The position numbers and the translations under genes are program-made. The notes under the pieces are model-generated. The model had not been told where the DNA came from. It did no database searches and saw nothing but the letters and a program-made list of their open reading frames with translations. From a virus, in the IMG/VR virus record IMGVR_UViG_3300009128_000070, positions 1-35,432 of that record: 35,432 nt of DNA. The stretch is one strand, 5' to 3'. Shown here piece by piece: positions 3,015 to 35,432 of this stretch. Every line of letters begins with the position of its first letter. Positions within the stretch are counted from its first letter, which is position 1.

Positions 3015-3056
3015 AAATATATTTGTATTTCAGGTATTTGCATGATATATATTATT

Positions 3057-3128
3057 GCGGATGAAGTGTTATAGGAAACACGCTTTGATTCCATTGAAGA
3101 GAAGTAGGTTCGACTCCTACCATCCGCT
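3057..3128 (+). tRNA. tRNA-Gly(UCC)
   Basis: Acceptor GCGGATG pairs perfectly with CATCCGC. D stem GTGT/ACAC, anticodon loop ATTCCAT in a stem with two G-U pairs (CTTTG/TGAAG), anticodon UCC, T arm GTAGG-TTCGACT-CCTAC. Discriminator U3128. It stands alone between two protein genes, away from the cluster at 45-524. A32 in the anticodon loop is unusual. Confidence 0.9.
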
Positions 3129-3186
3129 CAAATTTTGACCAGCTAGGTTATTTACTAATTGAAAAATAAAATAAAAGAGAAGTTAT

Positions 3187-4380: not shown

Positions 4381-4382
4381 TT

Positions 4383-4403
4383 AACAAATAACAAATAACA
4401 AAT
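4383..4403 (+). repeat. Three tandem copies of AACAAAT
   Basis: A 7-bp unit repeated three times without gaps in the 33-nt space between two genes, just upstream of the ribosome site AGGAAA of the gene at 4414. Its role, if any, could be in translation initiation; it may also be slippage. Confidence 0.7.
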
Positions 4404-4413
4404 AGGAAATAAA

Positions 4414-4995: not shown

Positions 4996-5016
4996 TGGTT
5001 ATGTGAGTACAGAATA

Positions 5017-6360: not shown

Positions 6361-7143
6361 ATGAAACAACTTACAGAACAACAGATATTAGATAATTGGA
6401 ATAAGTTAATTCAGTTAATAGAAGATACATTTGAAGGAGAACGTAAAGAGAAACTCTTAGAAATGTATAAATACTTTGAAGATAGAATGTCAGTAGCACC
6501 AGCTAGTGGTAAAGAAGCATATCACAATGCTATGGTTGGTGGGTATGTGGAACACGTGTTACACGTAACTGATTGCGCACTTCAAATTAAAAAGTTGTGG
6601 GAGTCTAATGGCGCTATGATTAATTTCACCGATGAGGAACTTATATTCGCTGCGATACATCACGACTTAGGTAAAGTGGGTGACTTACATCAAGACTATT
6701 ATATCCCACAAGAATCGGAATGGCATCGTAAGAATAAAGGTGAAATATTTAAACATAATCCGAATCTCCAATATATGACCGTAACTGATCGTGCGATTTT
6801 TCTTTTAAATCATTTTGGAATTACTATGAGTGAATGGGAATATATCGGTTTACGTTTAACTGATGGATTATATGAAGAAGGGAACAAATCTTATTATATG
6901 TCGTATAACCCGGACTGGTCGTTAAAATCTAACATAGCGTATATTCTTCATCAAGCCGATATGATGGCGACACATATTGAATTTGACCAATGGATGAAAA
7001 GTGATGAAGAATATAACACAAAAGTAACTACAAACATTCAAAAAGCGGTTGGTGGAAATACTAAAAAAACAAAGACAGAACCTTCACCACAAATGAGTAA
7101 AAAATCTCAAGATCTTTTTGATGAATTATTCGGAGATAAATAA
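6361..7143 (+). CDS. HD-domain phosphohydrolase
   Basis: 260 residues. The HD superfamily ligands are visible: H65 in GGYVEHVLHV, H101-D102 in AAIHHDLGK, and D200 in LHQADMMATHIE. Such enzymes are metal-dependent phosphohydrolases acting on nucleotides, cyclic or oligonucleotide signals, or RNA ends (compare bacterial YhaM-type). The substrate cannot be told from the sequence. The C-terminal 40 residues are a charged, probably unstructured tail (KKTKTEPSPQMSKK). It starts directly at the stop of the glycosyltransferase and overlaps the next gene by one base. A phage nucleotidase or a degrader of defence signals are both possible. Confidence 0.85.
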   Translation: MKQLTEQQILDNWNKLIQLIEDTFEGERKEKLLEMYKYFEDRMSVAPASGKEAYHNAMVGGYVEHVLHVTDCALQIKKLWESNGAMINFTDEELIFAAIHHDLGKVGDLHQDYYIPQESEWHRKNKGEIFKHNPNLQYMTVTDRAIFLLNHFGITMSEWEYIGLRLTDGLYEEGNKSYYMSYNPDWSLKSNIAYILHQADMMATHIEFDQWMKSDEEYNTKVTTNIQKAVGGNTKKTKTEPSPQMSKKSQDLFDELFGDK

Positions 7144-7403
7144 TGGTTATTGAAATAATTCTTGCTATAACATTACTTCTACTTTTTACATCATTTTATA
7201 TTATATGGAATTTAAATTCTAAACAAGAAATGATGGAAAATTGGATAGAAGATTTTGTGCAAGTAATAACAAAAGTAAATGAAGAATTGAAAGAGATAGA
7301 TTATCGTGGTTCATTTGAAGCCGATGATGAAACTGGCTCAATATTTAAATCAATACAAACAATAGTAGGTCAATTAGATAGATTCAAAGGAGAAGAACAA
7401 TAA
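7143..7403 (+). CDS. Small single-pass membrane protein
   Basis: 86 residues. Residues about 3-24 (IEIILAITLLLLFTSFYIIW) form one membrane helix, followed by a cytoplasmic-looking amphipathic, acidic helix (EMMENWIEDFVQVITKVNEE). The topology is probably N-out with the soluble part inside, though this is not certain. No holin-like second helix is present. It overlaps its neighbours by one base on each side, so it is expressed with the HD gene and the late sigma factor. Short proteins with this shape are common in large marine phages; function unknown. Confidence 0.75.
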   Translation: MVIEIILAITLLLLFTSFYIIWNLNSKQEMMENWIEDFVQVITKVNEELKEIDYRGSFEADDETGSIFKSIQTIVGQLDRFKGEEQ

Positions 7404-14390: not shown

Positions 14391-14696
14391 ATGCCTTATA
14401 CAAAAGATGAATTAAAAACTCATTCGTTTTATCAAAATCTTATTGATGAGGACGAACAAAAATATTTAAATGATAAACAACTTCTTATGGATAGAGCTGC
14501 TATTTCTGGATCTACAGATGATGGAAATTTATTAGTGAGAGATGAAGAAAATAATGTTTTATTGTTTGAAGATCCATACAAAAATGAAATACCAAAAGAT
14601 CCATCAACGAGATTAGTGGTTAAAACTATCGTAGATAGATTAAAAGATGATGAATCAATAAATGATATTATAGATAGAGATATAAGAGAATTATAA
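14391..14696 (+). CDS. Small acidic virion-module protein
   Basis: 101 residues, acidic. The N-terminus MPYTKDELKTHSFYQNLIDE and the C-terminal RLKDDESINDIIDRDIREL are helical, with a short GSTDDGNLLVRDEENN beta part between. No known family. It overlaps the giant wedge gene by one base, which suggests a partner or chaperone for that protein. No strong ribosome site is seen, so coupling to the gene before is likely. Confidence 0.7.
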   Translation: MPYTKDELKTHSFYQNLIDEDEQKYLNDKQLLMDRAAISGSTDDGNLLVRDEENNVLLFEDPYKNEIPKDPSTRLVVKTIVDRLKDDESINDIIDRDIREL

Positions 14697-17600
14697 TGGC
14701 AAGTAAATTATCACCAAGAGATAAACGATTATTAGATGCTGGAATGTCCAAACGAGTTGGTCAAAAACCTTATGAGGCTGGGCTATGGGGAGATCAAGGA
14801 AATAAAGATTTTGTTCTTTTAGAAATTTTCGACACTCAAAATAATTTAATTCAATACGAAAACTTACCTTTTTCTTCTGTAACAATAAATGAAACTTCTA
14901 ATAATATAGAAATTTATCCAGGAACTCATATTAGAGATTTAGGATTTGAGTCAGGCACATTTAAGTTAAGATATAGTTTTTTAAGAAAGTTGGCTGGAGA
15001 TGAATCAACTGTATTATTAAGAACTAAGGATAATCAAAAGGGAGAAATTCACACAGACACATCTAATATTTATATAACAGATGATGGTAAAGTATATATT
15101 GGAACTGAAGAACAATTTAGAGATAATTCACAATATAATGAACAACTTATTCTTGAAGATTTAAAATATCAAATACATAAGATTTCACCAAGTAGAAAAG
15201 AAGTTAGATTAAAAGCTAAAAACATTAAAGGAAGTTATCAAGAAGATTTTGCTAAATTACAAGAATCAATTCGATTAAGAAATGTAGATTTAGGAATTGA
15301 ATTTTTTGGTGGAGATCTTAATACTACAAATCAATTAAGAATTCAACCAACTCAAGACGGATTCATATTTACACAAAAAATGGTGAATAGTACGATTACA
15401 ATACCTGACGTATATAAAGTTGATGAAATAGTATCTGAAGTAATTACTCAAACTAATATACTTACAAATGGTGGTGGAGAACTATTAGAAACAAACGATT
15501 TAGGAGAAGTGATAACATTGGGTGATGCACACCAATGGGATTCATCATTACATAGTAATGCTGTAAAGCCTGTTGGTTGGTACAGCGGATTTAGGGATTT
15601 TTCCAGTGGAGCTTTTAGCGGAACAACTTCTACTGGCTATCACGCTCATTGGGTAAGAAATGAAGGTAAGCTTGGTGGGGTATGTATGAAATTTCCTGAC
15701 CAAAATCAACTATTCTATGAAAGTAGTGAACAATGGGAAAATGCTCCTCACCATTATCGTTATTTAATGATTACTACTGAACAGTTACCTAACCTACAAG
15801 GTCAAGGTATTCAGCATGGTGATTTAATAAATGTAGAATTTGATATGAAAGTATCTACACCAAATAGGGGTGTAAGTATAATGCCTTATTATCCCGGTGA
15901 CATGATTACAGAGGATATACCTACATCTCCTCCAAATGGATATTTTGATCCAACAACTGATCCACATACCGAAACTCAACCAACGTCTCCTCCACCAGGA
16001 TCAGTTGCTAATACTGATGCGAATGCTGGTATTATAGAAGATAAACCACCAACATCTCATGCTGAATTGGTAACTCATTTTGGAGTAACTAGTTTTGATG
16101 GTGTGGTTGGTGATTCTTCAGCTGATTGGGGTGGCGCTGGTGCGTGGAGAATAATTAATTATATACCAGGACAATCAGACGACGAATGGAAATCTCCACC
16201 AAAATGGTTTTGGGCATCAAATTTAACAGATCCAATGGAAGGAACGGTAAGTGATGGTGGAGAATGGATGTGGGATGGTACTGCATGGATTACAAATCCA
16301 AGCTTTGTTTCAAATGTTCCAACGCCGCCCGCAGGTACTGTGAATCCATTGGATTTTCCTACAGCAATAAACTCTCATCCATATCAATTGGATGGTCAGG
16401 GGACTCCTTTATTTAAAAGATTAAAGAAAAGAGGTGAGAATGATGGGTGGCAAGCGGGCACCATATGGGGAAATAAGGGTATATTATTATTTAAAGATGA
16501 TTTAATTTGGGAAACTGAATTTGAGTATACTACGGATTTTAATAAATTATCTTTAAGTACATTTGATGAATGGTTTCCAGATACACGAAATGTTAACTTG
16601 GACAATGGGAAAACTTTATATGAAGATATATTTTCAAATGGATTTATTCAAAGTGTTACAGGAGTTCCAGGCGGCGGTAACTCTGGTATGGCGATTCCAT
16701 GGATTTTAATATTCTATAATAATGGTGATATTGATTCTACCGATAATCCTGATTTAGAGTCTAATAGATATTTTTATTATAAAAAGGGTAGTGGAGTACA
16801 AATACGCCAAAGTAAAAAACTTCATTTTTTAAAGGATGTTGATTCAAATTTAAATAATAAAGTTATTGATAATAATTTAAGAATGTCTTGGGCCTTTAAA
16901 AAAGCTAATAGTCCAAATGCTGGAACATTTTATTATTATGTGATAGTTGATGATAAATATTTTAGAATAACAGATAATACTTCATTTGGAGAATTAGAAA
17001 ATAGAGGAGCTGATAGTGGTTACCCGATGAATGTAAATAGTGGATTTGGAAGTATAACAACTGATCCTGATGTATTTTTCCCTCATAGTAGTTACACACA
17101 TTATAATACTATCAAAGGTAAAAATGTGACCCAAAATAAATCAAACACACCCGAAGGTGTGAAATGGAGAAAATCTACAGAAGATATTTTTTATGGTGCC
17201 GGTATGTTTGGAACAAATGGGAATGATTTAATTTATGGAAGTAGAAATCCAGGAGCTACTAATTATAATCCTGTTGCTATATACGATGATGGAAGTTCTA
17301 TTTTTGATTTTGATGATAATCCATTAAAAATCGGAGTAAGAAGTGCTAAAGGAATATGGGAATGGAATGGATCTGAATGGGTGAGTGTTGCGGTTGTTCC
17401 ACCTAGATATTCATATAAACATCTTTCAACAGCAAACTCTAAACAACTTAATACAACAGTAGGTGAATGGGTTAAAAAGATAGTAAAATTAGAAATACCA
17501 GAAGATTGGTCGTTAGACCAAAAATGGTTTTTACAAATAATTGCTTCGGGTGGAAGAGGAGGAGAAGTTGGAACACAAGGAGTAGCTTGGGTTGATAATG

Positions 17601-20600
17601 TAGATGTTAGATTTACTTTAACTCAGCAAGCAGAAACCAGAGATGTATTTGTTCCATACACAGCGCAAATCCTATCTGTAAATGATGGTGGTAATATAAT
17701 AACGGTAGATAAGAATTTTCAAGATGTAGCTATGAATTTAGATTCATCTGGATTTGATGTAAATGAAGATTATCATGATGGTAATAATCCAGGAAGTTTT
17801 CCAGCAAGAAATACTGATAATGATACCGGTGGATTTGATGTTTCTTATACAGTGTATAATCCATTTGATTTAAGAACTTATTTAAAGTTTGAAAATGAAT
17901 TATTTTTAACTACAAATTTTAAGCCAGATAAACTTAATGTAAGTGATTATCCTAATGGTTTAGTTTATAAATTATACAAACCACTTCCTGATAGCTATCA
18001 AGAATTTGATGAATGTATTGTTGTAAAAGAAATGGCAGCGCCGGCAGAAGAAACTGTTAAGATTGTAGATTTTATTGATAAAGATGTTGGTGATGTTGTA
18101 TTAAAATCACCAGACTTAAATAATGTTGAAAGTCCTGTACAAAGGAGATCAACTTTATTTAAAAACGAAACTGACATTTTAACTTCTGATGATATTGTTT
18201 CAAATGAATTAAAGAATGAATTTGTAAGCCAAAGTTTAGATAGTGTAACCGTAAATACTGATTTTAGAAATTATGAAAATTTCGTTAATTTTAGCTCCAT
18301 TGAAAAAAGAGTTAGAAACTTTAAATATAAGTTAGAGTTGATAGAAACTTATACGGCAGAAAGCGCTTCCTTTAATGGTATAAGTGGTTCATCATCCGAT
18401 ACAAATGTGTGGACTAATAAGATTACGGATGTTAAGAATAACTTCGATCCATTTGAAACTTATATGTATTATGAAAGTTCTTCTTATATCAGCAGTTCAT
18501 TGGGAATCTTTTATGACAATGCTTGGCCAAAATCTGGTGGAAGTGGAACATTAGCTTCACCATATATTTTAGCTCATACAACTTCATCACAATCAGATAC
18601 TTGGTTTAGTAATGCTATAACAAGCGCTTCATTATATGATGAAGAAAATTTAAGTAAGTTAAGTTCATTGCTTCCAGAATATTTAAAAGAAGATAGTGAA
18701 AATGATGTATATTTGAAATTTACAGATATGATAGCGCAACACTTTGATTCAATTTGGGTTTATATTAACGCTATCACAGATACATTCGATAGAAGGGAAA
18801 AATTAACTGAAGGTGTTTCAAGAGATTTATTATGGAATGTTGCTAAGTCATTAGGTTGGAATTTAAATGATGGTAAAGATTTAGTTCCATTATCGAAATT
18901 TGCTTTAGGTAAAGAAGTGACAGGGTCTGCATATTCGGATTATTCAACTGTATCTGAAAGAGATATGTCAAGAGAAATTTGGAGTCGTATTGTAAATAAT
19001 ATGCCATTTTTCTTAAAGAATAAAGGTACTGTTAGAGCTTTAAAAGGTTTAATAAATATTTATGGTATTCCATCAACCATTTTAAGAGTAAAAGAATATG
19101 GTGGACCAGATGTACCTGACAATGAAACACCACAATTTGAAATCACTCGGAAATTCACAAAGGCTTTAGATTTTAGAGGAAGTCAATATGTTAAAACTGC
19201 TTGGTCTGATGATAGTTTATCGAGTAGGAAGCCCGATACAATAGAATTTAGATTTAGAGCCGCTACTGGTTCAAATCAAATATTGATTGAAAAGCAGGGT
19301 ACTGATGCTTCATCGAGTTTTTGGATTAGATTAAAAGATAATAATTCGATAGATGATTATGGTTATGTAGCATTTCAATTATCTGGCTCTGATGGAGTTA
19401 AGGAAATATCATCTTCCAACTTCCCTGTTTATGACGGAGATTTTTATTCTGTTATGTTACGGAGAACTTCGGGTAGTGATGCTGCAAATGTTTCTCAATC
19501 ATTCCAATTAGCAGTTGGTAAATATGATTCAAGTAGAAGTAAAATAAACTTATTTTCTGCGGTAACAATGTCTACTGATATAGCCGCTTCATCTTCATAT
19601 AACTTAGCCTACTCAAATGATGGTGAAATTTATATTGGTGGAAGTGGTGATGTATCTGGAATTGGAACGCAATTAAGTGGCTCGGTAATGGAATATAGAC
19701 ATTGGACTGAAACTTTAAATGTGGATTCATTTAGAAACCATATAGGCAATCCAAAAGCTTATGATGGTAATACTGTTTCTTCATCTTACAATAATTGTGT
19801 ATTAAGATATTCATTTGATGACAATAAAGATTTAAGTTCGGATACAGAAGGGATTAGAGATGTGAGCTCTAATCAAACATACACAGCTTCAGGATCTCAC
19901 AGTGGATTCACGGGGAACTTCTTTAGTAGTGTAGTTGATGAATTAAAAACTAATATACCAAGTATAGGAGCTTTAAGGCGAAGTACTAATAAAATTAGAA
20001 TTGAAGATAATCCAATTAAACCTGGCTTCATATTAAATAGAGATCACAGAGCAACAAATAGTGCATACGATAGTGCTCCAAATGATTCTAATAAAGTTGG
20101 GATATTCTTTGCACCAACTGATGTGATTAATAATGATATAATCAATTCTGTTGCTAATTTAAACTTTGATAATTATTTAGGTGATCCAAGAGATAAATTA
20201 GAATTAACTTATCGTGGATTAGAGGATATATCTGATAATTATTGGAAGAAATACACATCACCAAATAATTTTTGGGATTATATTAGATTGTTGAAATATT
20301 ACGATCAATCATTATATCCACAATTAAGAAAAATGGTGCCAGCAAGAGCTAAGCCCGATATTGGATTATTAGTAGAACCTAACATATTTGAAAGACCAAA
20401 AGTAGTTACTGGCAAGACACCCACGATGGAAAATGTGTATTACACTTCATCGGTAGATTTAACTTATGATGTAATTACTGTTACTGGTTCATATAACAAT
20501 GATAATTTTTCAGTATCAAGCTATGAGGCTTATGATGGCAATATAAAGATGTATTCTTATGAAACTGGTTCTTATATTTCATCAAGCGCTGAAAATGTAA

Positions 20601-21223
20601 CTAAAGAAGCAAGTGGTTCTGAATTTAGAACTGAAAAGCTTGGGTTGAGTTTATGGCAACGATTGAATACTAAAGATAAATTTTACGCCACATCTTCAAT
20701 AACATTTGGTGATTCAAAATATAATGAGGTTCATCAGCCTGTAGTTAGTGGTTCAAGAATATATGGTAGAAATCAAAAAATGTTATCATTTTATTCCTCA
20801 TCAGCAAGTGCATCTTTAAGATTAGCTTATTCATCTTCTTATTATGATGTCGATTTGGATAATCTTGTAGATCATAATTTATCCACATATAATTTATATT
20901 ATGCTGGGTGTAAGAATACTCCAAATACTACAACTGATGGCAATCCACCGGTTGAAATTATTGTTACATCACCAACTAAACTTGTAACAACTGACAGTGG
21001 TGATTCTACACTAAAAACTGATGAAGGTAATGTATCTAAATTTAAAGAGTTAGATAGAGATTCTGAAAAATCACCTATTAAAACTAAACCAGTTAAAATA
21101 AGAGGATTAAAAGGTTTATCTAAACATATGAGAGGTGAAATTGAAACAGAATCCGATCGAAAGGATAAACGTAGAAAAGAAAAATCAAAAGATTCTGAAA
21201 AAGAAAAAAGAGTAAGAAAGTAA
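14696..21223 (+). CDS. Giant baseplate wedge/tail protein, gp7-like with LamG-like domain
   Basis: 2175 residues. Visible parts in order: an N-terminal beta-rich region; about 390-900 an elaborate insert with proline-rich pieces (PTSPPNG, TSPPPGS) and two copies of a G-x-W-x-W-(D/N)-G-x-x-W motif (GEWMWDGTAW, GIWEWNGSEW); about 1320-1450 a P2 gpI-like tail segment (LSSLLPEYLKEDSEND, then MPFFLKNKGTVRALKGLINI); about 1495-1690 a concanavalin/LamG-like domain (DTIEFRFRA, YVAFQLSGSDG, FYSVMLRRTSG, GEIYIGGSG, MEYRHWTETL); and a strongly basic, probably disordered end (DRKDKRRKEKSKDSEKEKRV). By position and size it stands where T4 has gp7 (1032 residues), the wedge protein. The extra length comes from ligand-binding-like modules. 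Confidence 0.7.
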   Translation: MASKLSPRDKRLLDAGMSKRVGQKPYEAGLWGDQGNKDFVLLEIFDTQNNLIQYENLPFSSVTINETSNNIEIYPGTHIRDLGFESGTFKLRYSFLRKLAGDESTVLLRTKDNQKGEIHTDTSNIYITDDGKVYIGTEEQFRDNSQYNEQLILEDLKYQIHKISPSRKEVRLKAKNIKGSYQEDFAKLQESIRLRNVDLGIEFFGGDLNTTNQLRIQPTQDGFIFTQKMVNSTITIPDVYKVDEIVSEVITQTNILTNGGGELLETNDLGEVITLGDAHQWDSSLHSNAVKPVGWYSGFRDFSSGAFSGTTSTGYHAHWVRNEGKLGGVCMKFPDQNQLFYESSEQWENAPHHYRYLMITTEQLPNLQGQGIQHGDLINVEFDMKVSTPNRGVSIMPYYPGDMITEDIPTSPPNGYFDPTTDPHTETQPTSPPPGSVANTDANAGIIEDKPPTSHAELVTHFGVTSFDGVVGDSSADWGGAGAWRIINYIPGQSDDEWKSPPKWFWASNLTDPMEGTVSDGGEWMWDGTAWITNPSFVSNVPTPPAGTVNPLDFPTAINSHPYQLDGQGTPLFKRLKKRGENDGWQAGTIWGNKGILLFKDDLIWETEFEYTTDFNKLSLSTFDEWFPDTRNVNLDNGKTLYEDIFSNGFIQSVTGVPGGGNSGMAIPWILIFYNNGDIDSTDNPDLESNRYFYYKKGSGVQIRQSKKLHFLKDVDSNLNNKVIDNNLRMSWAFKKANSPNAGTFYYYVIVDDKYFRITDNTSFGELENRGADSGYPMNVNSGFGSITTDPDVFFPHSSYTHYNTIKGKNVTQNKSNTPEGVKWRKSTEDIFYGAGMFGTNGNDLIYGSRNPGATNYNPVAIYDDGSSIFDFDDNPLKIGVRSAKGIWEWNGSEWVSVAVVPPRYSYKHLSTANSKQLNTTVGEWVKKIVKLEIPEDWSLDQKWFLQIIASGGRGGEVGTQGVAWVDNVDVRFTLTQQAETRDVFVPYTAQILSVNDGGNIITVDKNFQDVAMNLDSSGFDVNEDYHDGNNPGSFPARNTDNDTGGFDVSYTVYNPFDLRTYLKFENELFLTTNFKPDKLNVSDYPNGLVYKLYKPLPDSYQEFDECIVVKEMAAPAEETVKIVDFIDKDVGDVVLKSPDLNNVESPVQRRSTLFKNETDILTSDDIVSNELKNEFVSQSLDSVTVNTDFRNYENFVNFSSIEKRVRNFKYKLELIETYTAESASFNGISGSSSDTNVWTNKITDVKNNFDPFETYMYYESSSYISSSLGIFYDNAWPKSGGSGTLASPYILAHTTSSQSDTWFSNAITSASLYDEENLSKLSSLLPEYLKEDSENDVYLKFTDMIAQHFDSIWVYINAITDTFDRREKLTEGVSRDLLWNVAKSLGWNLNDGKDLVPLSKFALGKEVTGSAYSDYSTVSERDMSREIWSRIVNNMPFFLKNKGTVRALKGLINIYGIPSTILRVKEYGGPDVPDNETPQFEITRKFTKALDFRGSQYVKTAWSDDSLSSRKPDTIEFRFRAATGSNQILIEKQGTDASSSFWIRLKDNNSIDDYGYVAFQLSGSDGVKEISSSNFPVYDGDFYSVMLRRTSGSDAANVSQSFQLAVGKYDSSRSKINLFSAVTMSTDIAASSSYNLAYSNDGEIYIGGSGDVSGIGTQLSGSVMEYRHWTETLNVDSFRNHIGNPKAYDGNTVSSSYNNCVLRYSFDDNKDLSSDTEGIRDVSSNQTYTASGSHSGFTGNFFSSVVDELKTNIPSIGALRRSTNKIRIEDNPIKPGFILNRDHRATNSAYDSAPNDSNKVGIFFAPTDVINNDIINSVANLNFDNYLGDPRDKLELTYRGLEDISDNYWKKYTSPNNFWDYIRLLKYYDQSLYPQLRKMVPARAKPDIGLLVEPNIFERPKVVTGKTPTMENVYYTSSVDLTYDVITVTGSYNNDNFSVSSYEAYDGNIKMYSYETGSYISSSAENVTKEASGSEFRTEKLGLSLWQRLNTKDKFYATSSITFGDSKYNEVHQPVVSGSRIYGRNQKMLSFYSSSASASLRLAYSSSYYDVDLDNLVDHNLSTYNLYYAGCKNTPNTTTDGNPPVEIIVTSPTKLVTTDSGDSTLKTDEGNVSKFKELDRDSEKSPIKTKPVKIRGLKGLSKHMRGEIETESDRKDKRRKEKSKDSEKEKRVRK

Positions 21224-24694: not shown

Positions 24695-25060
24695 ATGAGC
24701 ACCGTTCAAAGCCGTAAGGCAAAAGGTCGTCGTTTACAGCAGAAGGTTAGGGATTTATTATTAGAAACCTTTTCAGATCACTTAGAGAATGACGACATCC
24801 GTTCAACTTCAATGGGAGTTTCAGGAGAAGATCTGCAAGTTTCACCCGCAGCTCGAAAACTAATTCCTTATTCTTGGGAAATGAAAAATCAAGAGAAAAT
24901 TAACATCTGGGATTCAATTAAACAATCAGAAGATAATTGTCCAGAAAATGCAACGCCAGTATTGGTATTTAAACGAAATAGAAGCAAAACATATGCAGTC
25001 ATCAATATTGAAAAACTTATAGAACTTATATATGAATCAGCTAATAAATCTACTGAATAG
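24695..25060 (+). CDS. PD-(D/E)XK nuclease, Holliday-junction-resolvase-like
   Basis: 121 residues. The core of a PD-(D/E)XK nuclease is visible: basic N-terminal helix SRKAKGRRLQQKVRDLLLE, then GEDLQVSPAARK with D46, and YSWEMKNQE with E62-x-K64, followed by WDSIKQSEDN and a PVLVFKRNRSKTYAVI strand pair. The GEDLxxSP...ExKNqE pattern is found in small phage resolvase-like nucleases. It probably processes recombination or replication intermediates alongside the SbcD-SbcC protein downstream. AAAGGAAG precedes the start; the next gene begins inside its 3' end. Confidence 0.75.
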   Translation: MSTVQSRKAKGRRLQQKVRDLLLETFSDHLENDDIRSTSMGVSGEDLQVSPAARKLIPYSWEMKNQEKINIWDSIKQSEDNCPENATPVLVFKRNRSKTYAVINIEKLIELIYESANKSTE

Positions 25061-25973
25061 AGTAATTGGAAATCATGGTAGAAAGTTAAAAAAAACTAAT
25101 GAGTATATGTATTGGTCACCTTTCATTTCTCACCATAAACCAAAGCTCCAAATAAATACAGAAACTCAGAAGTGGCATTGCTGGGTTTCAAATCAAGGTG
25201 GACATAATTTATTTCAGTTATTTAAGAAGTTAAATGCCACTAAACAGCAATACGTTGAATTAACAGATTTAGTAGGATCTCCAAAATATAGAAAACGAAG
25301 TAAAGAGGTCAGAAGTAATACATTACGGTTGCCGGATGAATTTAAACCACTTTGGAAAAATGGTGATGGTATTATTAAACGTCATGCATTAGCATATTTA
25401 AAAAGGAGAAATGTTAATATGGCTGATATTATTAAATATGGTATTGGTTATTGTGAAGGTGGATTATATGATAATAGAATAATAGTTCCATCTTATGATT
25501 CTAATGATAATTTGAATTACTTTGTTGGTCGTAATATATATGATGGTGGTATGAAATATAAGAATCCGCCAACTTCAAAGGATATTATAGGCTTTGATTT
25601 ATTTATTAATTGGGATGAAGCAATTGTGTTGGTTGAAGGTGTGATGGATGCGATTGTTGTGAAAAGAAATGTTATACCCTTATTTGGAAAGACAGTACCT
25701 AATTCTTTAATGAAGAAGATTTATGAAAAAAAAGTAAAAAGTATATATATATTATTAGATAGAGATGCAAGAAAAGATTCTATTGAAATAATAGACAAAT
25801 TTATGAAAAATGGAATTGATGTTTATTTTGTAGATATTAAGAACGGAGATCCTTCAGATTTGGGATTTGAAAAAGTTAATGAATTGATTAAAGATACAAA
25901 TAAAATATCATTTTCAGAACTGATGAAGTTGAGATTAAATGGCAAAACAAAAAAATATTTGGAAACTTTATGA
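25032..25973 (+). CDS. DNA primase, gp61/DnaG-like, reduced zinc ribbon
   Basis: 313 residues, close to T4 gp61 (342). The Toprim core is clear: E202 in AIVLVEGVMDAIVV and D243-x-D245 in YILLDRDARKD. The segment before it (RRNVNMADIIKYGIGYCEGG ... YDNRIIVPSYD) is typical of the primase N-terminal catalytic part. The zinc-ribbon region, which reads C-x-x-C ... HC-x-x-C in T4 gp61, is SPFISHHKPKLQIN ... KWHCWVS here: positions 29, 32 and 53 are S, I and S, and only C50 remains. The start overlaps the nuclease gene by 29 bases; no helicase gene is next to it in this window. Confidence 0.85.
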   Translation: MNQLINLLNRVIGNHGRKLKKTNEYMYWSPFISHHKPKLQINTETQKWHCWVSNQGGHNLFQLFKKLNATKQQYVELTDLVGSPKYRKRSKEVRSNTLRLPDEFKPLWKNGDGIIKRHALAYLKRRNVNMADIIKYGIGYCEGGLYDNRIIVPSYDSNDNLNYFVGRNIYDGGMKYKNPPTSKDIIGFDLFINWDEAIVLVEGVMDAIVVKRNVIPLFGKTVPNSLMKKIYEKKVKSIYILLDRDARKDSIEIIDKFMKNGIDVYFVDIKNGDPSDLGFEKVNELIKDTNKISFSELMKLRLNGKTKKYLETL

Positions 25974-26145
25974 AGATGAGTGGAGAATCCACTTGGATGG
26001 AAAACGTAAAGTGAACAAAATAATCAAAGAAACTAATGGACATATCGTATGTGAATATTTTAAACGTGGAAAAATATTTGCGTGGGATGTAGCCGTACCA
26101 TCTGAAAACATAAAAGTAGCTCGTAAAATCCTCAAGGAGAAATAA
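25939..26145 (+). CDS. Small basic protein, unknown
   Basis: 68 residues, overlapping the primase 3' end by 35 bases in another frame. NIWKLYEDEWRIHLDGKRKV, IVCEYFKRGKIFAWDVAVP and KVARKILKEK give a plausible small globular protein of beta-beta-alpha pattern. No family recognised. Its sequence looks protein-like beyond the overlap, and it ends with AAGGAGA, which serves as the ribosome site of the SbcD-SbcC gene. Context suggests a role in replication or recombination. Confidence 0.65.
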   Translation: MAKQKNIWKLYEDEWRIHLDGKRKVNKIIKETNGHIVCEYFKRGKIFAWDVAVPSENIKVARKILKEK

Positions 26146-26150
26146 ATAGT

Positions 26151-29100
26151 TTGATAGAAAAAGTTGTAAAAGTACCTTTTCGTAAACTCAAATACATACA
26201 CCACATTTCAGATATTCAAATTCGCAACCTTAAGCGACATAAAGAATATGAACAAGTATTTGAGAGAACTTATGAAGAGATAAAAAAACACAAAGATAAT
26301 TCAGTTATATACATTGGTGGTGATATAGCCCACTCGAAAACGGAGATGTCTCCTGAATTGGTAGATCATCTCTCAAGATTATTTAAGAATTTAGCAGATA
26401 TAGCTCCAACAATTCTAATCGCTGGCAATCACGATTGTAATCTTAATAATAGGTCAAGAATGGATGTACTCTCACCGATTGTTAATAACATCAATCATTC
26501 AGATTTACACTACCTAAAACATTCGGGAATATATAAGTGCGCCGATGTTAAATTTGTAGTATGGGATGTTTGGGAAAAGGAAGCAGATTATATTGAAGCT
26601 AAAGATGTTACTGGTGATAATAAAGTTGTATTGTTTCATGGTACTGTTGATAGCTCGGAAACTGATTTAGGATTTAGATTGCCTTCAGATGTGAAGCTTT
26701 CTAAATTTGATGGTTATGATTTAGGATTATTGGGTGATATTCACAAAAGACAATTTCTTAATAAAAAGAAAACTATTGGGTATTGTGGTTCATTGGTTCA
26801 ACAAAATCATGGTGAAGGTTTATCACATGGTTATTTATTGTGGGATGTTCCAAAAAGAAAATCAAAGTATATTGAAATACCAAATGATTATGGGTATTAT
26901 ACTATTGATATAGATAATGGATTAGTGCCTGATTGTACTGATATACCTAAAAAGGCTAGATTGAGAGTTAGAGTTTGTAACACTACGCCATCACAATTAA
27001 AGAAAGCTTTAACTATAATTCACAATAGGCATGGAATCAAAGAAATTTCAGTTACTAAAACAGATTCACTATACTCAAATGAAAAAGTTAGAGGTCAGAG
27101 AATAACTGTTGGTGATATAAGAGATGCTAATTATCAGTTTGGGCTTATTGAGGATTACTTAAAACAAAATCATTTTGTTGATGATAATACTCTCATTGAT
27201 ATTAAAAAAATAAATGAAGAATTAAATGGCAGATTGCCGGAAGAGGATGTTAATAGAGGTGTAACTTGGGAATTAAAGAAATTTGAGTTTTCTAATATGT
27301 TTAGTTATGGTGAAGATAATATTGTTGATTTTACTAAACTAAATGGTATTATTGGATTGTTCGCTCCAAACGCAAGCGGAAAGTCAGCTTTATTAGATGC
27401 TGTTTCATTCTGTTTATTTGATACTTCTTCACGAGCATACAAAGCTGTAAATGTATTGAATAATAAGAAAGGTTCGTTTCATTGTAAAGCTACATTAGAA
27501 GTGGATGGTGTGGAGTATTTCATTGAAAGAAATGGTAAACGACTAAAAAATGGTCATGTAAAAGTAAATGTAGATTTTTACACATTCGATGATAGCGGTG
27601 AAAAAGTTTCAATGAATGGAGATCAAAGAAGAACCACCGATGTAAATATCCGTAAAGTTATTGGGACGTACGATGATTTTATTATGACGGCACTTTCCTT
27701 ACAAAATAACTCAACTGTATTTATAGATAAAACTCAAAAAGAACGGAAAGAACTTCTTGCTCAATTTATGGGAATTGGTGTATTTGATCAATTATATACA
27801 ATGGCAGGTGATGAGATATATGATGTTCAAGCCCTACTCAAATCATTTCGTGAGAATGATTACGAAAGAGATTTATCTGAAATAAAATCTTCACTTACTG
27901 AAATGAAGAAAGAATCAAGAGCTCTTATCGCTGAAAAGAAAAGTGTTATTTCTGATAAGAAGGGGGTTGATAGTAGTATAATTAGTACAACCAAAAAACT
28001 TCGGAAAGTTGAAGATTTTACAGAGAGTATAGATGAAATGAACGATACCAAAGAATCTTTAGAAGTCGAATTGAATAGTATAGATATTAGATTTGGTGAA
28101 ATAAGAGAACTTTCTGAAAGTTATAAAAATAATGAGGTTGAATTGGAAGAAAAAATATCAATGTTTAGAGAAAATGATGTTGAAAGAAAGTTTGCTCAAT
28201 TAGAACAATATAGATTAGAGAAATCTAATAATAAGATCGAGATTGATAAACTTAAAATTGATGTTAAGAATAAACTTGATAAGATTGAAACGCTTGGTAA
28301 TTTAGAACACGATCCTAATTGTAGTTATTGTATGAGCAATCCATTTACTCTTGATGCCATTGAAACCAAAAAACGTTTGGATGAGGATAAAGAGTTAGCC
28401 AATAAATATGTTAATAAATCAGATCAATTAGATAGAATAATTACTAATCTTTCACACATTGAACTTCATAAATCACAAATGGATGATTGTATTCATCAGA
28501 TGAGTTTATTAACTTCTGATATGAGTTCATTGGATAGTGAAAGCCAGTTGATTACTGAAAAGAAAAGAAATTTAATAACACAGTTAGCAAACATTGAAGA
28601 TAAGATTAATTTATATCATACTAATGAGAAGGATATTGTTTATAATAACAATCTTCAAATAAAAATAATTGAACTTGAGAATGAATCTCAATCACTGGAA
28701 GATACATTGAATGGTTTAGATAATGATTTAGGTTCTGTTAATGGTGATATTAAAGTATTGGAAACCAATCGTAAAACTATACTTGAAAATATTAAAAAAG
28801 TTGAAGAATTAGAAGATAAGTATGCTGCTTACCAATATTATATGGATGCTATTAAAAGAGATGGTGTTCCGTATGAATTAATTTCAAAAGCTCTTCCAAC
28901 TATTGAAGGTGCTGTAAATGATATACTTGCACAAATTGTAGATTTTTCCATGATATTAGAAATGGATGGGAAGAACATCAATACATATATTGTATATGAT
29001 GATGATAATGTTTGGCCTCTTGAATTAAGTAGTGGGATGGAAAGGTTTATTTCTTCTCTTGCTATGAGAGTAGGTTTAATAAATGTATCTAATTTACCGT

Positions 29101-29303
29101 CTGCAAACTTTCTTGCAATAGATGAGGGTTGGGGAACTATGGATTCGGATAATCTAAACTCTGTTTATAATTTATTTCAGTTCTTAAAATCACAATTCCA
29201 ATTTACTATGATTGTTTCTCATATTGATTCTATGAGAGATGCTGTAGATACACTTCTTGAAATTAAGAAAGAGAAAAGTTTTAGTAACGTCGTTTTTGAG
29301 TAG
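26151..29303 (+). CDS. SbcD-SbcC (Mre11-Rad50, gp47-gp46) fusion
   Basis: 1050 residues in one uninterrupted frame, starting at TTG with AAGGAGA upstream. Residues 1 to about 360 are a calcineurin-like nuclease: ISDIQIR (D21), GGDIAH (D58, H61), AGNHD (N93-H94-D95), LFHG and LLGDIHKRQ. From about 370 follows an SMC-type ATPase: Walker A FAPNASGKSALLD, Q-loop-like LSLQNNSTVF, a long coiled coil with the zinc hook C724-S-Y-C727, signature ELSSGMERFISSLAMR and Walker B FLAIDEGWGTMDSDN. In T4 these are separate genes 47 and 46, acting in recombination-dependent replication and host DNA breakdown. The first metal motif reads D-I-Q where T4 gp47 has D-W-H. Confidence 0.93.
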   Translation: MIEKVVKVPFRKLKYIHHISDIQIRNLKRHKEYEQVFERTYEEIKKHKDNSVIYIGGDIAHSKTEMSPELVDHLSRLFKNLADIAPTILIAGNHDCNLNNRSRMDVLSPIVNNINHSDLHYLKHSGIYKCADVKFVVWDVWEKEADYIEAKDVTGDNKVVLFHGTVDSSETDLGFRLPSDVKLSKFDGYDLGLLGDIHKRQFLNKKKTIGYCGSLVQQNHGEGLSHGYLLWDVPKRKSKYIEIPNDYGYYTIDIDNGLVPDCTDIPKKARLRVRVCNTTPSQLKKALTIIHNRHGIKEISVTKTDSLYSNEKVRGQRITVGDIRDANYQFGLIEDYLKQNHFVDDNTLIDIKKINEELNGRLPEEDVNRGVTWELKKFEFSNMFSYGEDNIVDFTKLNGIIGLFAPNASGKSALLDAVSFCLFDTSSRAYKAVNVLNNKKGSFHCKATLEVDGVEYFIERNGKRLKNGHVKVNVDFYTFDDSGEKVSMNGDQRRTTDVNIRKVIGTYDDFIMTALSLQNNSTVFIDKTQKERKELLAQFMGIGVFDQLYTMAGDEIYDVQALLKSFRENDYERDLSEIKSSLTEMKKESRALIAEKKSVISDKKGVDSSIISTTKKLRKVEDFTESIDEMNDTKESLEVELNSIDIRFGEIRELSESYKNNEVELEEKISMFRENDVERKFAQLEQYRLEKSNNKIEIDKLKIDVKNKLDKIETLGNLEHDPNCSYCMSNPFTLDAIETKKRLDEDKELANKYVNKSDQLDRIITNLSHIELHKSQMDDCIHQMSLLTSDMSSLDSESQLITEKKRNLITQLANIEDKINLYHTNEKDIVYNNNLQIKIIELENESQSLEDTLNGLDNDLGSVNGDIKVLETNRKTILENIKKVEELEDKYAAYQYYMDAIKRDGVPYELISKALPTIEGAVNDILAQIVDFSMILEMDGKNINTYIVYDDDNVWPLELSSGMERFISSLAMRVGLINVSNLPSANFLAIDEGWGTMDSDNLNSVYNLFQFLKSQFQFTMIVSHIDSMRDAVDTLLEIKKEKSFSNVVFE

Positions 29304-29580: not shown

Positions 29581-32500
29581 ATGAGCGTAGTAAAACGATA
29601 TAACAAACTCTTAAACCTTGATAATATTGACGTATTGGTAGATGAAGTTGACGTTTCGGATCATATAATTATATCCGAACTTCCTGAAAGCTTACCACAA
29701 GGTAGAAGTTCATTCCTTATAGAAGTTTCACCATATATGAGAGATGGTGTGGAGCTCCAAATTGACATTATTGATTCTGAAGGTAAGAGTATTTATTCAG
29801 AACCAGTCGAGAATCATTTGGAAGGTACTTCTCGTCGTGTTTCTATCGAAGTTTATGGTGATACCGCTCCTGGTGTAGCCACTATGATTATAGTTGGTGA
29901 GCTTGACGCTTTACCATTAGGACCTGGAGCATTTAGTGAGTATGAAGAAGTTCCAAAAGAATGGGAAGGTGTATATAATATACGGCTTACTAAAAATGTA
30001 ATCATTAACACAGCCGCTCTAAACACCCAACCGATAAAATTTTATTCCACACCAAAACTTCATATTTCAGAAACGAGATTGGGTTCGCTGGAGTTAGAGA
30101 GTACAATAACTGCTTTATCATCTTCTATTATTGAATTAGAAGGTATTCCAATGTCGGGTAGAGAATTCACACCATTTCCATCTTCTACAGACACATCCAC
30201 AAAGAGTGAGAAGCAGGGGACAAAGGATAGAGATGAGAAATCTCTTCCAGATGGTAGAGGTAAAACAGATATTGCTGATATAGAAACTCGAAAACAAAGT
30301 TCCAAAAAGCAAAGCACTCGTAAAAGTTCACATGGTAGGAGATCTGGTAGAGTAGCGAGAAGATCTTCACCTATACAATATCCATACAGCTTCACCATCG
30401 TATCCGGCAGTCATACATTCGATACTCAGCAAATTGGTGGAACAATAACATTTGAAACATTCGATACCAGCATTTATAACGCAGATACTTTCAGAGAAAA
30501 TGGGTTAGGTCACCCCGATAATGTATCAGCAAACATAGTTCAGTTATCTCATGATAGGAATTATCCATACTATTATACAGCTTCCATTTCCGATTTGGGA
30601 AATAGTACTACTGCTTTAGTATCTACTCCATTTACAAGGCAAACTACAAATGGTGAATATAAGATTATACCATTGAAGGCTACGGGAGTTGTCCATTACG
30701 AATCAGAACCATCTGCATCATATAGTACTGCTAATATTATTTCATATGCTAATGTTAAGATGAGTGATTTAAGAACTTTTTCTGGTGATGTATTCAAAAC
30801 AAAGGTTTATGTCCGGAGTGAAGGTTCTTGGGATGATTTTCAATTATTAACGGAACTTCCATTAGAGGCTCCCGAATTTATGATAAACAGCGGTTCAGTT
30901 GGAGTTGGTGAAAGAACAGGCTACTTTATTAGTCAAGAAGATGTTACAAATTATTGGAATGTTTATGGTGGTACTAATGGATTATCAGCAGCTGGACCTG
31001 AAACATCAGCGTCTTACGATAATGATACTCTATTAGATTCTATTGAGTTATCAGGTAGTATATCAGAGTTTAGTGACCAAATAAGATTTCAATTAAAGGA
31101 TGATTATAGATTTAATTTAGAGGATAATATAGATTACACACTCTCATTTACAGCCGTCGGTAGAAAATCTGCTGTAGATAAAGCTTTAATGATGTTGTAT
31201 GTATCTGGATCATCTGTTTATCAAAGTAATAAACTTCACAATGATACTTTCTTTGATGGTGAAGTATTAGAACCAACTCAATATGGAAAACGATTAGGAG
31301 TATTGGAGGTTAATACTTCTGATCAACCGACAAAGGAGTTTGGTTTAGTAAAGCATAACTTTAATGTTGATTTAACTGGTGATGCTATAATTCAATTTAG
31401 AATAATATCGGGTATATGGAATATTTCTGATGTTTCAATTAGACCATCAGCAGATACTGGCTTCTCACCATCATTTATAGAATTTAGCCAACAACTACCA
31501 CCTAACTTACAGCATAAAAGGCCGGACACTCTTGAATTTCTTGCTGAATTTTATGATATAAATAATAATTTAGCAGACACTATATCATTTACTACTGGAT
31601 CTGTATTTACAGGTCCAAATTTAGTTATTACTGGTGATGATAATAATATGAGTGGTGATTTATTCCTTGGTGGTGATACTACTGGTAGTGGTGTTCATAT
31701 GGGAGGTGTTAATTCCACACTTCCTGAAACAGGTGGAGCTGGAGCAGAAGGTTCTGGATTCATCCGTTCAGTAGGTTATCAAGGATTTATGTCAGCGTCA
31801 AATCAAGATGGTGATTATGGATTTATGATATATAGTGGATCTGTATTGCCAGATTCAGGCGATTCTTACGCTGGTGTAGGTTTAGAGTTAATTGGTGTGA
31901 GTGGTTCATTAAAGTTTAGAACTAATCCAAGTGTATTTGAGGTTATAGCTGATGCATTTTATGTTGGTAGTTCGGATACTCAATTCATAAGTGGTTCGAG
32001 CGGACAAATAGAAATATCATCATCCAACTTCCATTTATCACCGAGTGGTGATGTTAATATGACTGGTACAGTTACGGCTCAAGCGGGGGATATAGCTGGT
32101 TGGTTAATCACAACTGGCTCCGATGGCCGTTCTTTATTAAGTGGCTCTAATATAACATTAGACGCAAGCGGTTCTTCAATTTTTATGTCGGATAAAGGTC
32201 CAAGAAGTGATGTAAGTTATCCAAATGGTTTTGAACCTTTAGCCGATGAATATTATATGGATTTTACGCCAAGTGGAAGTGATGATTCTGCTGGTTATTA
32301 TGTAAAATTTGGTCCAAACTTCTCTGTTGATCACGAAGGTATTTTAATTGCAAGCGGAGCAAAGTTTGAAGGAACTATAACAGCATCCGCTGGTATGATT
32401 GGCGGGTGGCAGATTGAAGATACCTATTTAGGTTCAGTTCCTGATGGGGTTAGATTATATGGTGGGGGTACTCCTTATGTAATTTCATCTTCTAATTTCC

Positions 32501-35432
32501 AAGTTACTTCGGACGGTGATGTTAGTGGTTCTCAAGTATTATTTACTGGCGGTAAGATTGGTGGATTTAATATTGGAGCTTCAACACTAACAAATGTAGA
32601 AAATACAGTTGAACTAAGTACTATACTACCTGGTTTGAAAATTAAGGATAACACAGGTACTTCGAGGGTAGAGGTTAAGTCGGGATCATTTTCAGATATT
32701 GGTGGTGGAACTCAACATATAGGTAATGAAGGATTTGAGGAAACAGGTTCATTATCAGCTGGGAGAAATTTTAATCCAACAGTTGCAAGTTGGTCGTATA
32801 GTATGGGTGGTCACGTTACTGCTAGTTTGACTGATAGATCTGGTTATTCTGATTTTGAAAAAGCGGTTAGTGGAGATATTTCTTTTGATGTTGTAATACC
32901 ATCCGGCGCAGCAAATTACTCATCAAATAATACTTATGAGTTATCACAAGTTATAACAGCATCAATAGCCGAAGGAGACACTTTAAGTTTTTCTGCTGTT
33001 GCCAGATTTAGTTCAAGTTTTGGTACTGGAAAAGAAAGAGCATTACAACCTCAATATTATATAGTAGAATATAGTTCGTCTAATTCAAATGGGTGGACAC
33101 CATTTTTACCATCTGCTGCATATACGTCAAGTAATGGGTATGCGGAATACTTCTTAGGGGCAGGACAATACAATAGTTTTGGTGGAAGTGCGGCAATTCC
33201 TGAAGCTTGCGATTATTTGAGAGTTACGGTTACTGGAAGTATTAACGATGATGGGGGATTTACAGTAGAGGCTCCTTTATTTGCAAAAGCAAAAGCTGGT
33301 AAATGGAAAGAGGATTCTACTTTAGGTAAGAAGAAATATAATAAGGTTTTCACAAACACAGAATCACCAGAATATCCTGAAACTGAAATTACATTTGATA
33401 GTTTTAGATTAAAGAGTAACACAAGAAAAATTGAAATGACGCAAGATGGATTGTTAATATACAATTCAGAAGATAGTTTTATTAAAATGACTTCAGAGGG
33501 TATAGAAATTCAAGGTGGGAGCGGAGTTTCAGCATTCAGTACAGCAATCAATAGAGAGGCTTTCACAAATGATAGTCAGATTGCAGGAACGTTAGCGGCT
33601 CCACAATTACAAGCTGATGCCAATGTTCCTTCTAATATAGGAACTTCATCTGCCGCTGGTGACAACGCATTTTATTCAAGAGGTAATCATATTCACGGAT
33701 TGCCATTTTCAACACTTAATACTGTTGTTAATGGGCAAACATTTGATAGCTTAAATGTAACTGCTTTGACTTCATCTAATGTGTTATTTACTGATTCTGG
33801 TATTTTGAGTCAATCATCACAGGTTGATCACGACCAAACGGCAAATTTTGATGCCAATGAACATTTTACTCAAACTAACATTACAACTGTTGGTACGGTT
33901 ACTTCAGGGAATGTTGATGCTATATTACCTTCAAATTTATTAAGCGGTTCAGCACAAATTGCTAGTGATATTAGTGGGTCGTTAGGAACTAATGCTTCCT
34001 TAATTAGAAGTTTAACAGCTGTTGGTATAACTGGTTCATTCACATCACTTTCACAAAGTTTAGCAGCCCGAATAGCAACTGAAGAAGCCGAAGTGGGTGA
34101 TATATCTGCAGTTAATGTATCTGGAACTGGTTTAAGTGGAGGTGGAAGTTCAGGAGATGTTACTGTTACAATTACTCCTTCAGATGTGGTTTCTGCCGTT
34201 GGTGGATTTAGTGGTTCTGCTCAAGTAGATCATGACTCTACAACAAACTTTTCATCAGACGAACATTTTACTCAAGCTAACATTACAACTGTTGGTACTG
34301 TAACTGCCGGAAGTGTTACAGCAATTTTACCAACAGATACAGTAAGTGGTTCCGCACAAATTGCTAGTGATATTAGTGGTTCTTGGACTTCTGATAGATT
34401 ACCTGCGGGTACTGTAAGTGGTTCATCACAAATAGACCACAATTCTACAACTAATTATGACGCTGATAGTCATATAGATCATACTGGAGTTGGAATAACT
34501 GCTGGAAGTGGTATGACTGGTGGTGGGACTATTGATTCAAGTTTAACTTTGAACGTAATTGGTGGAGATGGTATCACTGCTAATGCAAATGATATAGAAG
34601 TTGATTCTACTGTTTTAAGAACAACTGGGGATAATATAATTAGTTCGTCTGCTCAAGTAGATCATGACTCTACTACGAACTTTGTTGCTAATGAACATAT
34701 CAATCACACGTCAGTAAGCATTGCAGCGGGAAGTGGATTAACCGGCGGTGGGACAATCGCATCTAATAGAACTATAAATATTGGAAGTGGAACTGGTATA
34801 ACAGTAAATGCTGATAGTATACAAACGAATGATTCAGCAATTGTTCATGATAATTTAAGTGGATTCGTTTCTAATGAACATATCAATCACACTTCAGTAA
34901 CTTTAACTGCTGGCGCTGGATTAAATGGTGGTGGGGATATATCCACTAACAGAACTTTTTCAGTTGATTCAGGCTCAATGGCAGCTTATTATTCAAGTTC
35001 TGCATTCGGAACTGTGACTGGTGATGTTTTAATAACTGATGCTGGAGTTTCAACGATACAAACTACATCAGTTGAAAATAGTATGTTAGCTGGTTCAATC
35101 GCTAATTCTAAATTATCCAATTCAAGTGTTAATTATGGTGGAATCACATTATCATTAGGAGGAAGTGATACAACACCTGCATTCAATTTATCAGATGCAA
35201 CTGCTCTACCAATAGTAGCTGGAACAACTGGAACACTTTCAGTTGCAAGAGGTGGAACGGGAGCAACAACTTTAAATAATTTAATTACACTTGGAACACA
35301 CACAACAGGAAATTATGTGGCAACTCTGACTGGTGGAACTGGAATAACATCTACCGGAGCTACATCAGGCGAAGGAATTACACATTCAATAAGTGTTGAT
35401 GCTTCACAAACTCAAATTACAGAATTGGGAAC
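29581..35432 (+). CDS. Giant tail fibre/adhesin, 3' end beyond the window
   Basis: Open from ATG 29581 to the window edge, at least 1950 residues without a stop; checked in frame at 32389, 34201 and 35398. The N-terminal 230 residues are probably the attachment part, followed by a basic linker (KQSSKKQSTRKSSHGRRSGR, about 237-256) and beta-rich, Ser/Gly-rich domains. Three short modules share an (A/G)G-x-I-(A/G)-G-(W/F)-x-I motif at about 834, 937 and 989 (AGDIAGWLI, AGMIGGWQI, GGKIGGFNI). Residues about 1415-1795 are repeats of SGSAQVDHDSTTNF and EHINHTSVSI-AGSGLTGGGTI-type blocks, common in marine phage fibres. The sequence before the window end (GTLSVARGGTGATTLNNL) is also typical of long-tail-fibre shafts. 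The ribosome site is weak (TTGGAAATTTA). Confidence 0.88.
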   Translation, partial: MSVVKRYNKLLNLDNIDVLVDEVDVSDHIIISELPESLPQGRSSFLIEVSPYMRDGVELQIDIIDSEGKSIYSEPVENHLEGTSRRVSIEVYGDTAPGVATMIIVGELDALPLGPGAFSEYEEVPKEWEGVYNIRLTKNVIINTAALNTQPIKFYSTPKLHISETRLGSLELESTITALSSSIIELEGIPMSGREFTPFPSSTDTSTKSEKQGTKDRDEKSLPDGRGKTDIADIETRKQSSKKQSTRKSSHGRRSGRVARRSSPIQYPYSFTIVSGSHTFDTQQIGGTITFETFDTSIYNADTFRENGLGHPDNVSANIVQLSHDRNYPYYYTASISDLGNSTTALVSTPFTRQTTNGEYKIIPLKATGVVHYESEPSASYSTANIISYANVKMSDLRTFSGDVFKTKVYVRSEGSWDDFQLLTELPLEAPEFMINSGSVGVGERTGYFISQEDVTNYWNVYGGTNGLSAAGPETSASYDNDTLLDSIELSGSISEFSDQIRFQLKDDYRFNLEDNIDYTLSFTAVGRKSAVDKALMMLYVSGSSVYQSNKLHNDTFFDGEVLEPTQYGKRLGVLEVNTSDQPTKEFGLVKHNFNVDLTGDAIIQFRIISGIWNISDVSIRPSADTGFSPSFIEFSQQLPPNLQHKRPDTLEFLAEFYDINNNLADTISFTTGSVFTGPNLVITGDDNNMSGDLFLGGDTTGSGVHMGGVNSTLPETGGAGAEGSGFIRSVGYQGFMSASNQDGDYGFMIYSGSVLPDSGDSYAGVGLELIGVSGSLKFRTNPSVFEVIADAFYVGSSDTQFISGSSGQIEISSSNFHLSPSGDVNMTGTVTAQAGDIAGWLITTGSDGRSLLSGSNITLDASGSSIFMSDKGPRSDVSYPNGFEPLADEYYMDFTPSGSDDSAGYYVKFGPNFSVDHEGILIASGAKFEGTITASAGMIGGWQIEDTYLGSVPDGVRLYGGGTPYVISSSNFQVTSDGDVSGSQVLFTGGKIGGFNIGASTLTNVENTVELSTILPGLKIKDNTGTSRVEVKSGSFSDIGGGTQHIGNEGFEETGSLSAGRNFNPTVASWSYSMGGHVTASLTDRSGYSDFEKAVSGDISFDVVIPSGAANYSSNNTYELSQVITASIAEGDTLSFSAVARFSSSFGTGKERALQPQYYIVEYSSSNSNGWTPFLPSAAYTSSNGYAEYFLGAGQYNSFGGSAAIPEACDYLRVTVTGSINDDGGFTVEAPLFAKAKAGKWKEDSTLGKKKYNKVFTNTESPEYPETEITFDSFRLKSNTRKIEMTQDGLLIYNSEDSFIKMTSEGIEIQGGSGVSAFSTAINREAFTNDSQIAGTLAAPQLQADANVPSNIGTSSAAGDNAFYSRGNHIHGLPFSTLNTVVNGQTFDSLNVTALTSSNVLFTDSGILSQSSQVDHDQTANFDANEHFTQTNITTVGTVTSGNVDAILPSNLLSGSAQIASDISGSLGTNASLIRSLTAVGITGSFTSLSQSLAARIATEEAEVGDISAVNVSGTGLSGGGSSGDVTVTITPSDVVSAVGGFSGSAQVDHDSTTNFSSDEHFTQANITTVGTVTAGSVTAILPTDTVSGSAQIASDISGSWTSDRLPAGTVSGSSQIDHNSTTNYDADSHIDHTGVGITAGSGMTGGGTIDSSLTLNVIGGDGITANANDIEVDSTVLRTTGDNIISSSAQVDHDSTTNFVANEHINHTSVSIAAGSGLTGGGTIASNRTINIGSGTGITVNADSIQTNDSAIVHDNLSGFVSNEHINHTSVTLTAGAGLNGGGDISTNRTFSVDSGSMAAYYSSSAFGTVTGDVLITDAGVSTIQTTSVENSMLAGSIANSKLSNSSVNYGGITLSLGGSDTTPAFNLSDATALPIVAGTTGTLSVARGGTGATTLNNLITLGTHTTGNYVATLTGGTGITSTGATSGEGITHSISVDASQTQITELG
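33859..34892 (+). repeat. Fibre shaft repeats visible at DNA level
   Basis: Near-identical blocks inside the fibre gene: 33859-33903 and 34261-34305 (GAACATTTTACTCAA...), with GCACAAATTGCTAGTGATAT at 33952 and 34354 at the same 402-bp offset; TCTGCTCAAGTAGATCATGA at 34216 and 34648; CTAATGAACATATCAATCAC at 34688 and 34871. All offsets (402, 432, 183) are multiples of three, so recombination between copies would keep the frame. Confidence 0.85.

Follow-up and report, generated by a model that had tools for sequence, protein, structure and literature searches.

A phage Mre11–Rad50 fusion gene with glutamine in place of a Mn1-ligand histidine

A marine viral record of 35,432 bases (IMG/VR IMGVR_UViG_3300009128_000070, analysed at full length and here called the window) carries an open frame at 26151–29303 on the plus strand, in which a phosphoesterase is followed by a Rad50-type ATPase and glutamine stands at a metal-ligand position of the nuclease. 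The locus raises two questions: whether this is one genuine gene, and whether its nuclease still works. The frame spans 1050 codons without an internal stop, and domain matches, profile matches and a structural model identify it as a fused Mre11(SbcD)-Rad50(SbcC) gene. We consider it probably the phage's only Mre11-Rad50 machine, built as one chain, with a nuclease that is most likely active and uses Gln23 as a Mn1 ligand (probability about 0.6). Fusions of this kind are already known; the glutamine replacement in motif I is the less known part. The parts of the gene and its upstream neighbours described below lie on the plus strand.

Pfam placed Metallophos at residues 16–199 and SMC_N/AAA_23 at residues 375–1042, and PHROGs named the second half only, as an SbcC-like subunit. 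The N-terminal profile of the family matched Thermotoga maritima Mre11 over nearly its full length (E 1.1e-21), and the C-terminal part matched Rad50 and SbcC. An AlphaFold2 model built with 39 sequences had a mean pLDDT of 82.7 and a pTM of 0.46, the latter as expected for a long coiled coil; it carries no metal geometry. Used as a Foldseek query, the model retrieved Mre11-Rad50 and other SMC-like entries.

The chain begins with a calcineurin-like phosphoesterase (Mre11 nuclease) core (residues 1–245; 26151–26885), supported by Pfam, the Thermotoga profile and the model. A capping, putatively DNA-binding domain (residues ~246–325; 26886–27125) was assigned from the secondary structure of the model and by analogy with Mre11. 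The Rad50-binding helix-loop-helix (residues 326–360; 27126–27230) corresponds to model helices 326–340 and 345–360 and is also backed by a profile match to the C-terminus of T. maritima Mre11. The Rad50/SbcC N-lobe (27264–27770; Pfam, profile matches and model) contains Walker A, APNASGKS, at 27363–27386. It is followed in the model by an antiparallel coiled coil (residues 543–715 and 731–901; 27777–28853) and by a C-lobe (28866–29288; profile matches and model) with the signature LSSGME (29025–29042), Walker B FLAIDE (29109–29126) and H-loop H1024 (29220–29222). The zinc hook C724-x-x-C727 lies at 28320–28331, and both cysteines are invariant in the family alignment. The Rad50/SbcC feature set is thus complete, from Walker A, signature, Walker B and H-loop to the coiled coil with its CxxC hook, and the original prediction of a phosphoesterase joined to a complete Rad50-type ATPase with zinc hook was confirmed.

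That prediction had also supposed that the fusion creates a topology different from that of the separate complex. This part was not supported. Mre11-then-Rad50 order is compatible with the T. maritima complex, in which the ends to be joined lie ~28 Å apart and a linker of 9–12 residues would suffice (PMC3175470). In our model, the predicted linker between the helix-loop-helix and the first Rad50 strand is 11 residues long (residues 361–371; 27231–27263), within the published range.

The active site departs from the canonical SbcD/Mre11 ligand set at three motifs. In place of DxH, GDxxD, GNHD/E, H and GHxH, the protein has DxQ, GDxxH, GNHD, H and GDxH. According to alignments and trees, motif I is D21-I22-Q23 (26211–26219) in the context H-I-S-D21-I-Q23, and the Gln23 codon is CAA at 26217–26219. 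The alignment places motif II, D58-I-A-H61, at 26322–26333; motif III, N93-H94-D95, at 26427–26435; motif IV, H163, at 26637–26639; and motif V, G195-D196-I197-H198, at 26733–26744. The GDxxH and GDIH forms of motifs II and V, which the original prediction had not recorded, are common to nearly the whole fused family and Mimivirus R555.

The predicted replacement of a metal-binding histidine by glutamine was borne out. Aligned motif I reads D-x-H in E. coli SbcD, T4 gp47 and Staphylococcus phage Stau2, and the family profile puts position 23 on the histidine of D-W-H in Thermotoga Mre11. Gln23 therefore occupies the Mn1-ligand position of PfMre11 His10. Two conditions had been named under which the replacement would lose its meaning, namely that Gln23 is normal in its clade and that position 23 is not the ligand position. 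The first describes the clade correctly, as D-I-Q occurs in all near relatives whose sequence includes motif I; the second does not apply, because the position aligns with the ligand histidine. A chance His-to-Gln sequencing error is ruled out by the presence of Gln in all near relatives.

Among 221 diverse relatives, position 23 was His in 142 and Gln in 79, with nothing else. A scan anchored on motif V, with position 23 left free, again returned only His or Gln; two other pattern scans fixed H or Q by design, so that their counts are not frequencies. The fused phage family includes both H and Q members, so that a protein with DxQ is one of its variants and does not stand outside it.

The two states have interchanged repeatedly. 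In a tree of the 221 rows, built without the column for position 23, parsimony required five His/Gln changes, at least three of them on well-supported branches; the window protein fell within an all-Gln clade of 61 rows (support 99). A 49-row tree also required five changes, and a single Gln clade was rejected by the AU test (p-AU 8.7e-46), which rules out a single origin of Gln. The Gln lineages comprise at least the window clade (IRNLKRH), a 1150-aa IRFGSRH clade that mixes Gln and His, the pair L147/L083, and L289. Within the window clade, we inferred about 15 CAA/CAG changes at the Gln codon that left the amino acid unchanged, indicating selection to keep Gln.

The remaining ligands have not drifted. 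D21, D58, N93, H94, H163, D196 and H198 were all invariant in the 79 Gln rows, in which only 36 of 240 columns were invariant; the chance of seven-ligand invariance is ~1e-6, a statistic that tests decay and not discovery, since the conservation of these ligands across the family already has known causes. A paired test on one column, Ser20, gave no signal of change parallel to Gln, with few independent changes available. Some columns were enriched with Gln, e.g. T165, possibly through shared ancestry only. Judged from these sequence comparisons, Gln is a selected, recurrent alternative to His at the Mn1 ligand. Invariance of the other ligands, retention of Gln and the repeated His/Gln changes argue against decay, and Gln23 is most likely a working oxygen ligand.

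The analysis shows the architecture, the linker, the ligand positions, their conservation, the recurrence of the change, the synteny and the single copy per contig; how the protein works, from catalysis and metal identity to its dimer form and role in replication, is inferred from these. Two chains would dimerise, as in the two-chain complexes, through their Mre11 parts, ATPase heads and zinc hook, and the short linker would allow each Rad50-binding helix-loop-helix to dock on the base of its own coiled coil. Gln is approximately the right length to place an oxygen at the position of the His N-epsilon, and Asn is not. The side-chain oxygen of Gln23 would be donated to Mn1 where His gives its N-epsilon, and together with Asp196, which replaces the second-site His, would make the metal site harder and richer in oxygen. 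Encoded next to a primase and a resolvase, the protein most likely acts as T4 gp46/47 do, trimming and tethering DNA ends in support of recombination-dependent replication and repair of the phage DNA.

A tentative extension, to which we give distinctly less credence, is that His/Gln forms an evolutionary switch. On this reading, a nitrogen-to-oxygen swap has repeatedly been added to the fixed Asp at the second site, suiting a harder or more abundant metal such as Mg2+ or a scarcity of Mn, and activity is altered, not lost.

It is unlikely that Gln23 abolishes Mn1 binding and leaves a dead or nearly dead nuclease, kept for tethering of DNA ends by the Rad50 part, even though two known substitutions point that way. 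LpxH with H10N at the same ligand position no longer binds Mn1 or captures substrate (PMC5016852), which shows that an amide side chain need not serve well as a ligand; and in SbcD, H84Q, which puts Gln at another active-site His, is widely used as a nuclease-deficient allele. However, lost catalysis should let the other ligands drift, and all seven are retained across diverse Gln rows. Moreover, Gln is held against synonymous change, and it interchanges with His repeatedly, with no other residue entering position 23. No biochemistry for any Gln-type member was found in the papers searched.

The original prediction allowed that loss of the His ligand could reduce Mn-dependent exonuclease activity or shift it to endonuclease. 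Spelled out, this would mean a weakened Mn1 and an enzyme that still cleaves DNA, with one metal or a weakly bound one, but acts as an endonuclease in place of a 3'-5' exonuclease. In favour of such a shift, the mechanism proposed for Mre11 has Mn1 activate the attacking hydroxide (discussed in PMC5016852), and SbcCD has two chemically distinct cleavage reactions (PMC6265447). Nothing links the choice between exo- and endonuclease to the ligand in motif I, however; for SbcCD, strand polarity and DNA melting are the factors discussed, and both reactions should suffer if Mn1 were defective. We therefore regard this shift as improbable. The reading that we prefer remains an active nuclease with Gln23 as a Mn1 ligand.

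The fused gene itself was observed repeatedly. An IMG/VR scan gave a near set of 38 loci with 72–89% identity, and every near locus long enough to show one had a single unbroken frame (more than 30 independent assemblies). The same one-frame gene occurred in more than 100 distant contigs, in the cultured Microcystis phage Mel-JY01 (40% identity) and in a 735-kb phage assembly. Nearly all untruncated loci from the pattern scans were single frames of ~1050 or ~1150 aa, in a tally that counts some contigs twice and includes several shared with the near set. The start is also conserved: the window gene has a ribosome-binding site, AAGGAG, at 26134–26139, 5' of its TTG codon, and a TTG start behind purine-rich AAAGGA is kept in four near relatives (L007, L011, L022 and L026). 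That two genes were joined artificially during assembly or sequencing, or that a frameshift is involved, has a negligible probability, as nothing was found in its favour and an unbroken frame of ~1050–1160 aa recurs in well over 100 contigs, in independent assemblies and in the cultured phage record. The predicted single-chain SbcD-SbcC, nuclease then ATPase in one frame, is thus genuine; its implied rarity is not, as members of this phage family normally have the one-piece gene and such fusions were published in 2011.

Some relatives carry a split gene, and in none of the cases seen does the break coincide with the SbcD/SbcC border. In L041 (split locus at 2959–7184), L068, L069, L131, L134, L189, L241 and L252, it lies just after motif V, within the nuclease domain, and L155 and L343 each hold one half of such a gene. 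Upstream halves gain an acidic tail, [IV]DE-E-L--Y---GW, and downstream halves a basic tail, M--KIKIRRK. Nothing lies between the halves in L189; in others the gap is filled by unrelated genes. A TnsA-like nuclease ORF lies between them in L041, and one of the same type precedes the downstream half in L343; L068 has a different nuclease-like ORF together with one or more protease-like and methyltransferase-like ORFs, and L241 and L252 have a 312–317-aa ORF. An intron was rejected as the cause of these splits, as no Rfam intron was found in ten such loci. They look like recurrent genes-in-pieces. Two unsplit genes (L188 and L211) have a 42–45-aa insert in the same loop after GDIH, which resembles the two tails joined and may be ancestral to the split genes. 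In another group (L298, L303, L305, L309, L316, L318, L324, L326, L337 and L345), a short nuclease-core gene lacks the cap, which is found, wherever the sequence suffices, with the helix-loop-helix and Rad50 part on a separate ~780-aa gene. Together, and on an unrooted tree, these splits suggest that the fusion came before the fission.

The surroundings of the gene are conserved as well. A DnaG-like primase with zinc ribbon and TOPRIM (313 aa; 25032–25973) lies just upstream of the fusion, and a primase was found there in 33/33 near, 90/92 Gln-pattern and 98/99 His-pattern loci. A small 68-aa ORF between primase and fusion (25939–26145) and a RusA-like Holliday junction resolvase / PDDEXK_15 nuclease (24695–25060) were each syntenic in 33/33 near loci, and a RecA-like protein is encoded on a 165-kb contig. 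Eight of eight large contigs carried a single Metallophos match and a single AAA_23 match, and the two always shared one frame; being fragments, these contigs may miss a second Mre11-Rad50 system.

The window also encodes PhoH, baseplate wedge proteins and five tRNAs, which indicates a tailed phage of myovirus type. Two giant ORFs had no PHROG match: one of 2175 aa at 14696–21223, and one of 1950 aa at 29581–35430 that runs off the window end, contains many Ser/Gly/Thr repeats and resembles a tail or fibre protein. Positions 6361–7143 gave a weak match to a phage metal-dependent phosphohydrolase family. The fusion gene was also present on contigs of bacterial MAGs (L281, L282 and L283; Gammaproteobacteria, Dehalococcoidia and Cellvibrionales), which are probably phage contigs binned with bacteria and name no host.

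Single-chain Mre11-Rad50 machines are common in aquatic phages, and database names that mention SbcC only (e.g. PHROG 77) hide the nuclease half. No characterised single-chain Mre11-Rad50 from an aquatic phage was found in the papers searched. A natural ligand swap that recurs while all other ligands are kept provides ready-made pairs for probing the first metal in Mre11 chemistry.

Among known proteins, LpxH H10N is alike in having an amide residue at the same Mn1-ligand position; it differs in that the residue is Asn, engineered rather than natural, in an enzyme with another substrate, and in that Mn1 is lost (PMC5016852). E. coli SbcCD and the Thermotoga and Pyrococcus Mre11-Rad50 complexes share the fold, ATPase motifs, zinc hook, cap and helix-loop-helix, but consist of two polypeptides with DxH and GHxH ligands and have low sequence identity to the window protein, which scores far below the curated NCBIfam cut-offs for SbcC and SbcD. 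T4 gp47/gp46 have a homologous nuclease and ATPase and, as proposed here for the fusion, a role in end processing during recombination-dependent replication; they are encoded by two genes, and gp47 has DxH and GHxH.

The closest counterpart is the R555 type. Yoshida, Claverie & Ogata (2011) reported fusions of Mre11 and Rad50 not only in Mimivirus (R555) but also in bacteria, plasmids, eukaryotes and a Bacillus phage, and argued that many aquatic R555 homologues are phage-borne, with phage primases on the same scaffolds (PMC3175470). In R555, His replaces the third Asp of GDxxD and Asp242 replaces PfMre11 His206 (PMC3175470). The window protein agrees in domain order, with Mre11-like and then Rad50-like parts in one frame, in retaining the cap and helix-loop-helix, in GDxxH (H61), in Asp for His206 (D196) and in predicted linker length; abundance in aquatic virus metagenomes and phage primases on the same scaffolds are also common to both. 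R555, however, is a 1351-aa protein of a eukaryotic virus, whereas the window protein has 1050 aa and belongs to a tailed phage, and motif I is DxH in R555 and DxQ in the window clade.
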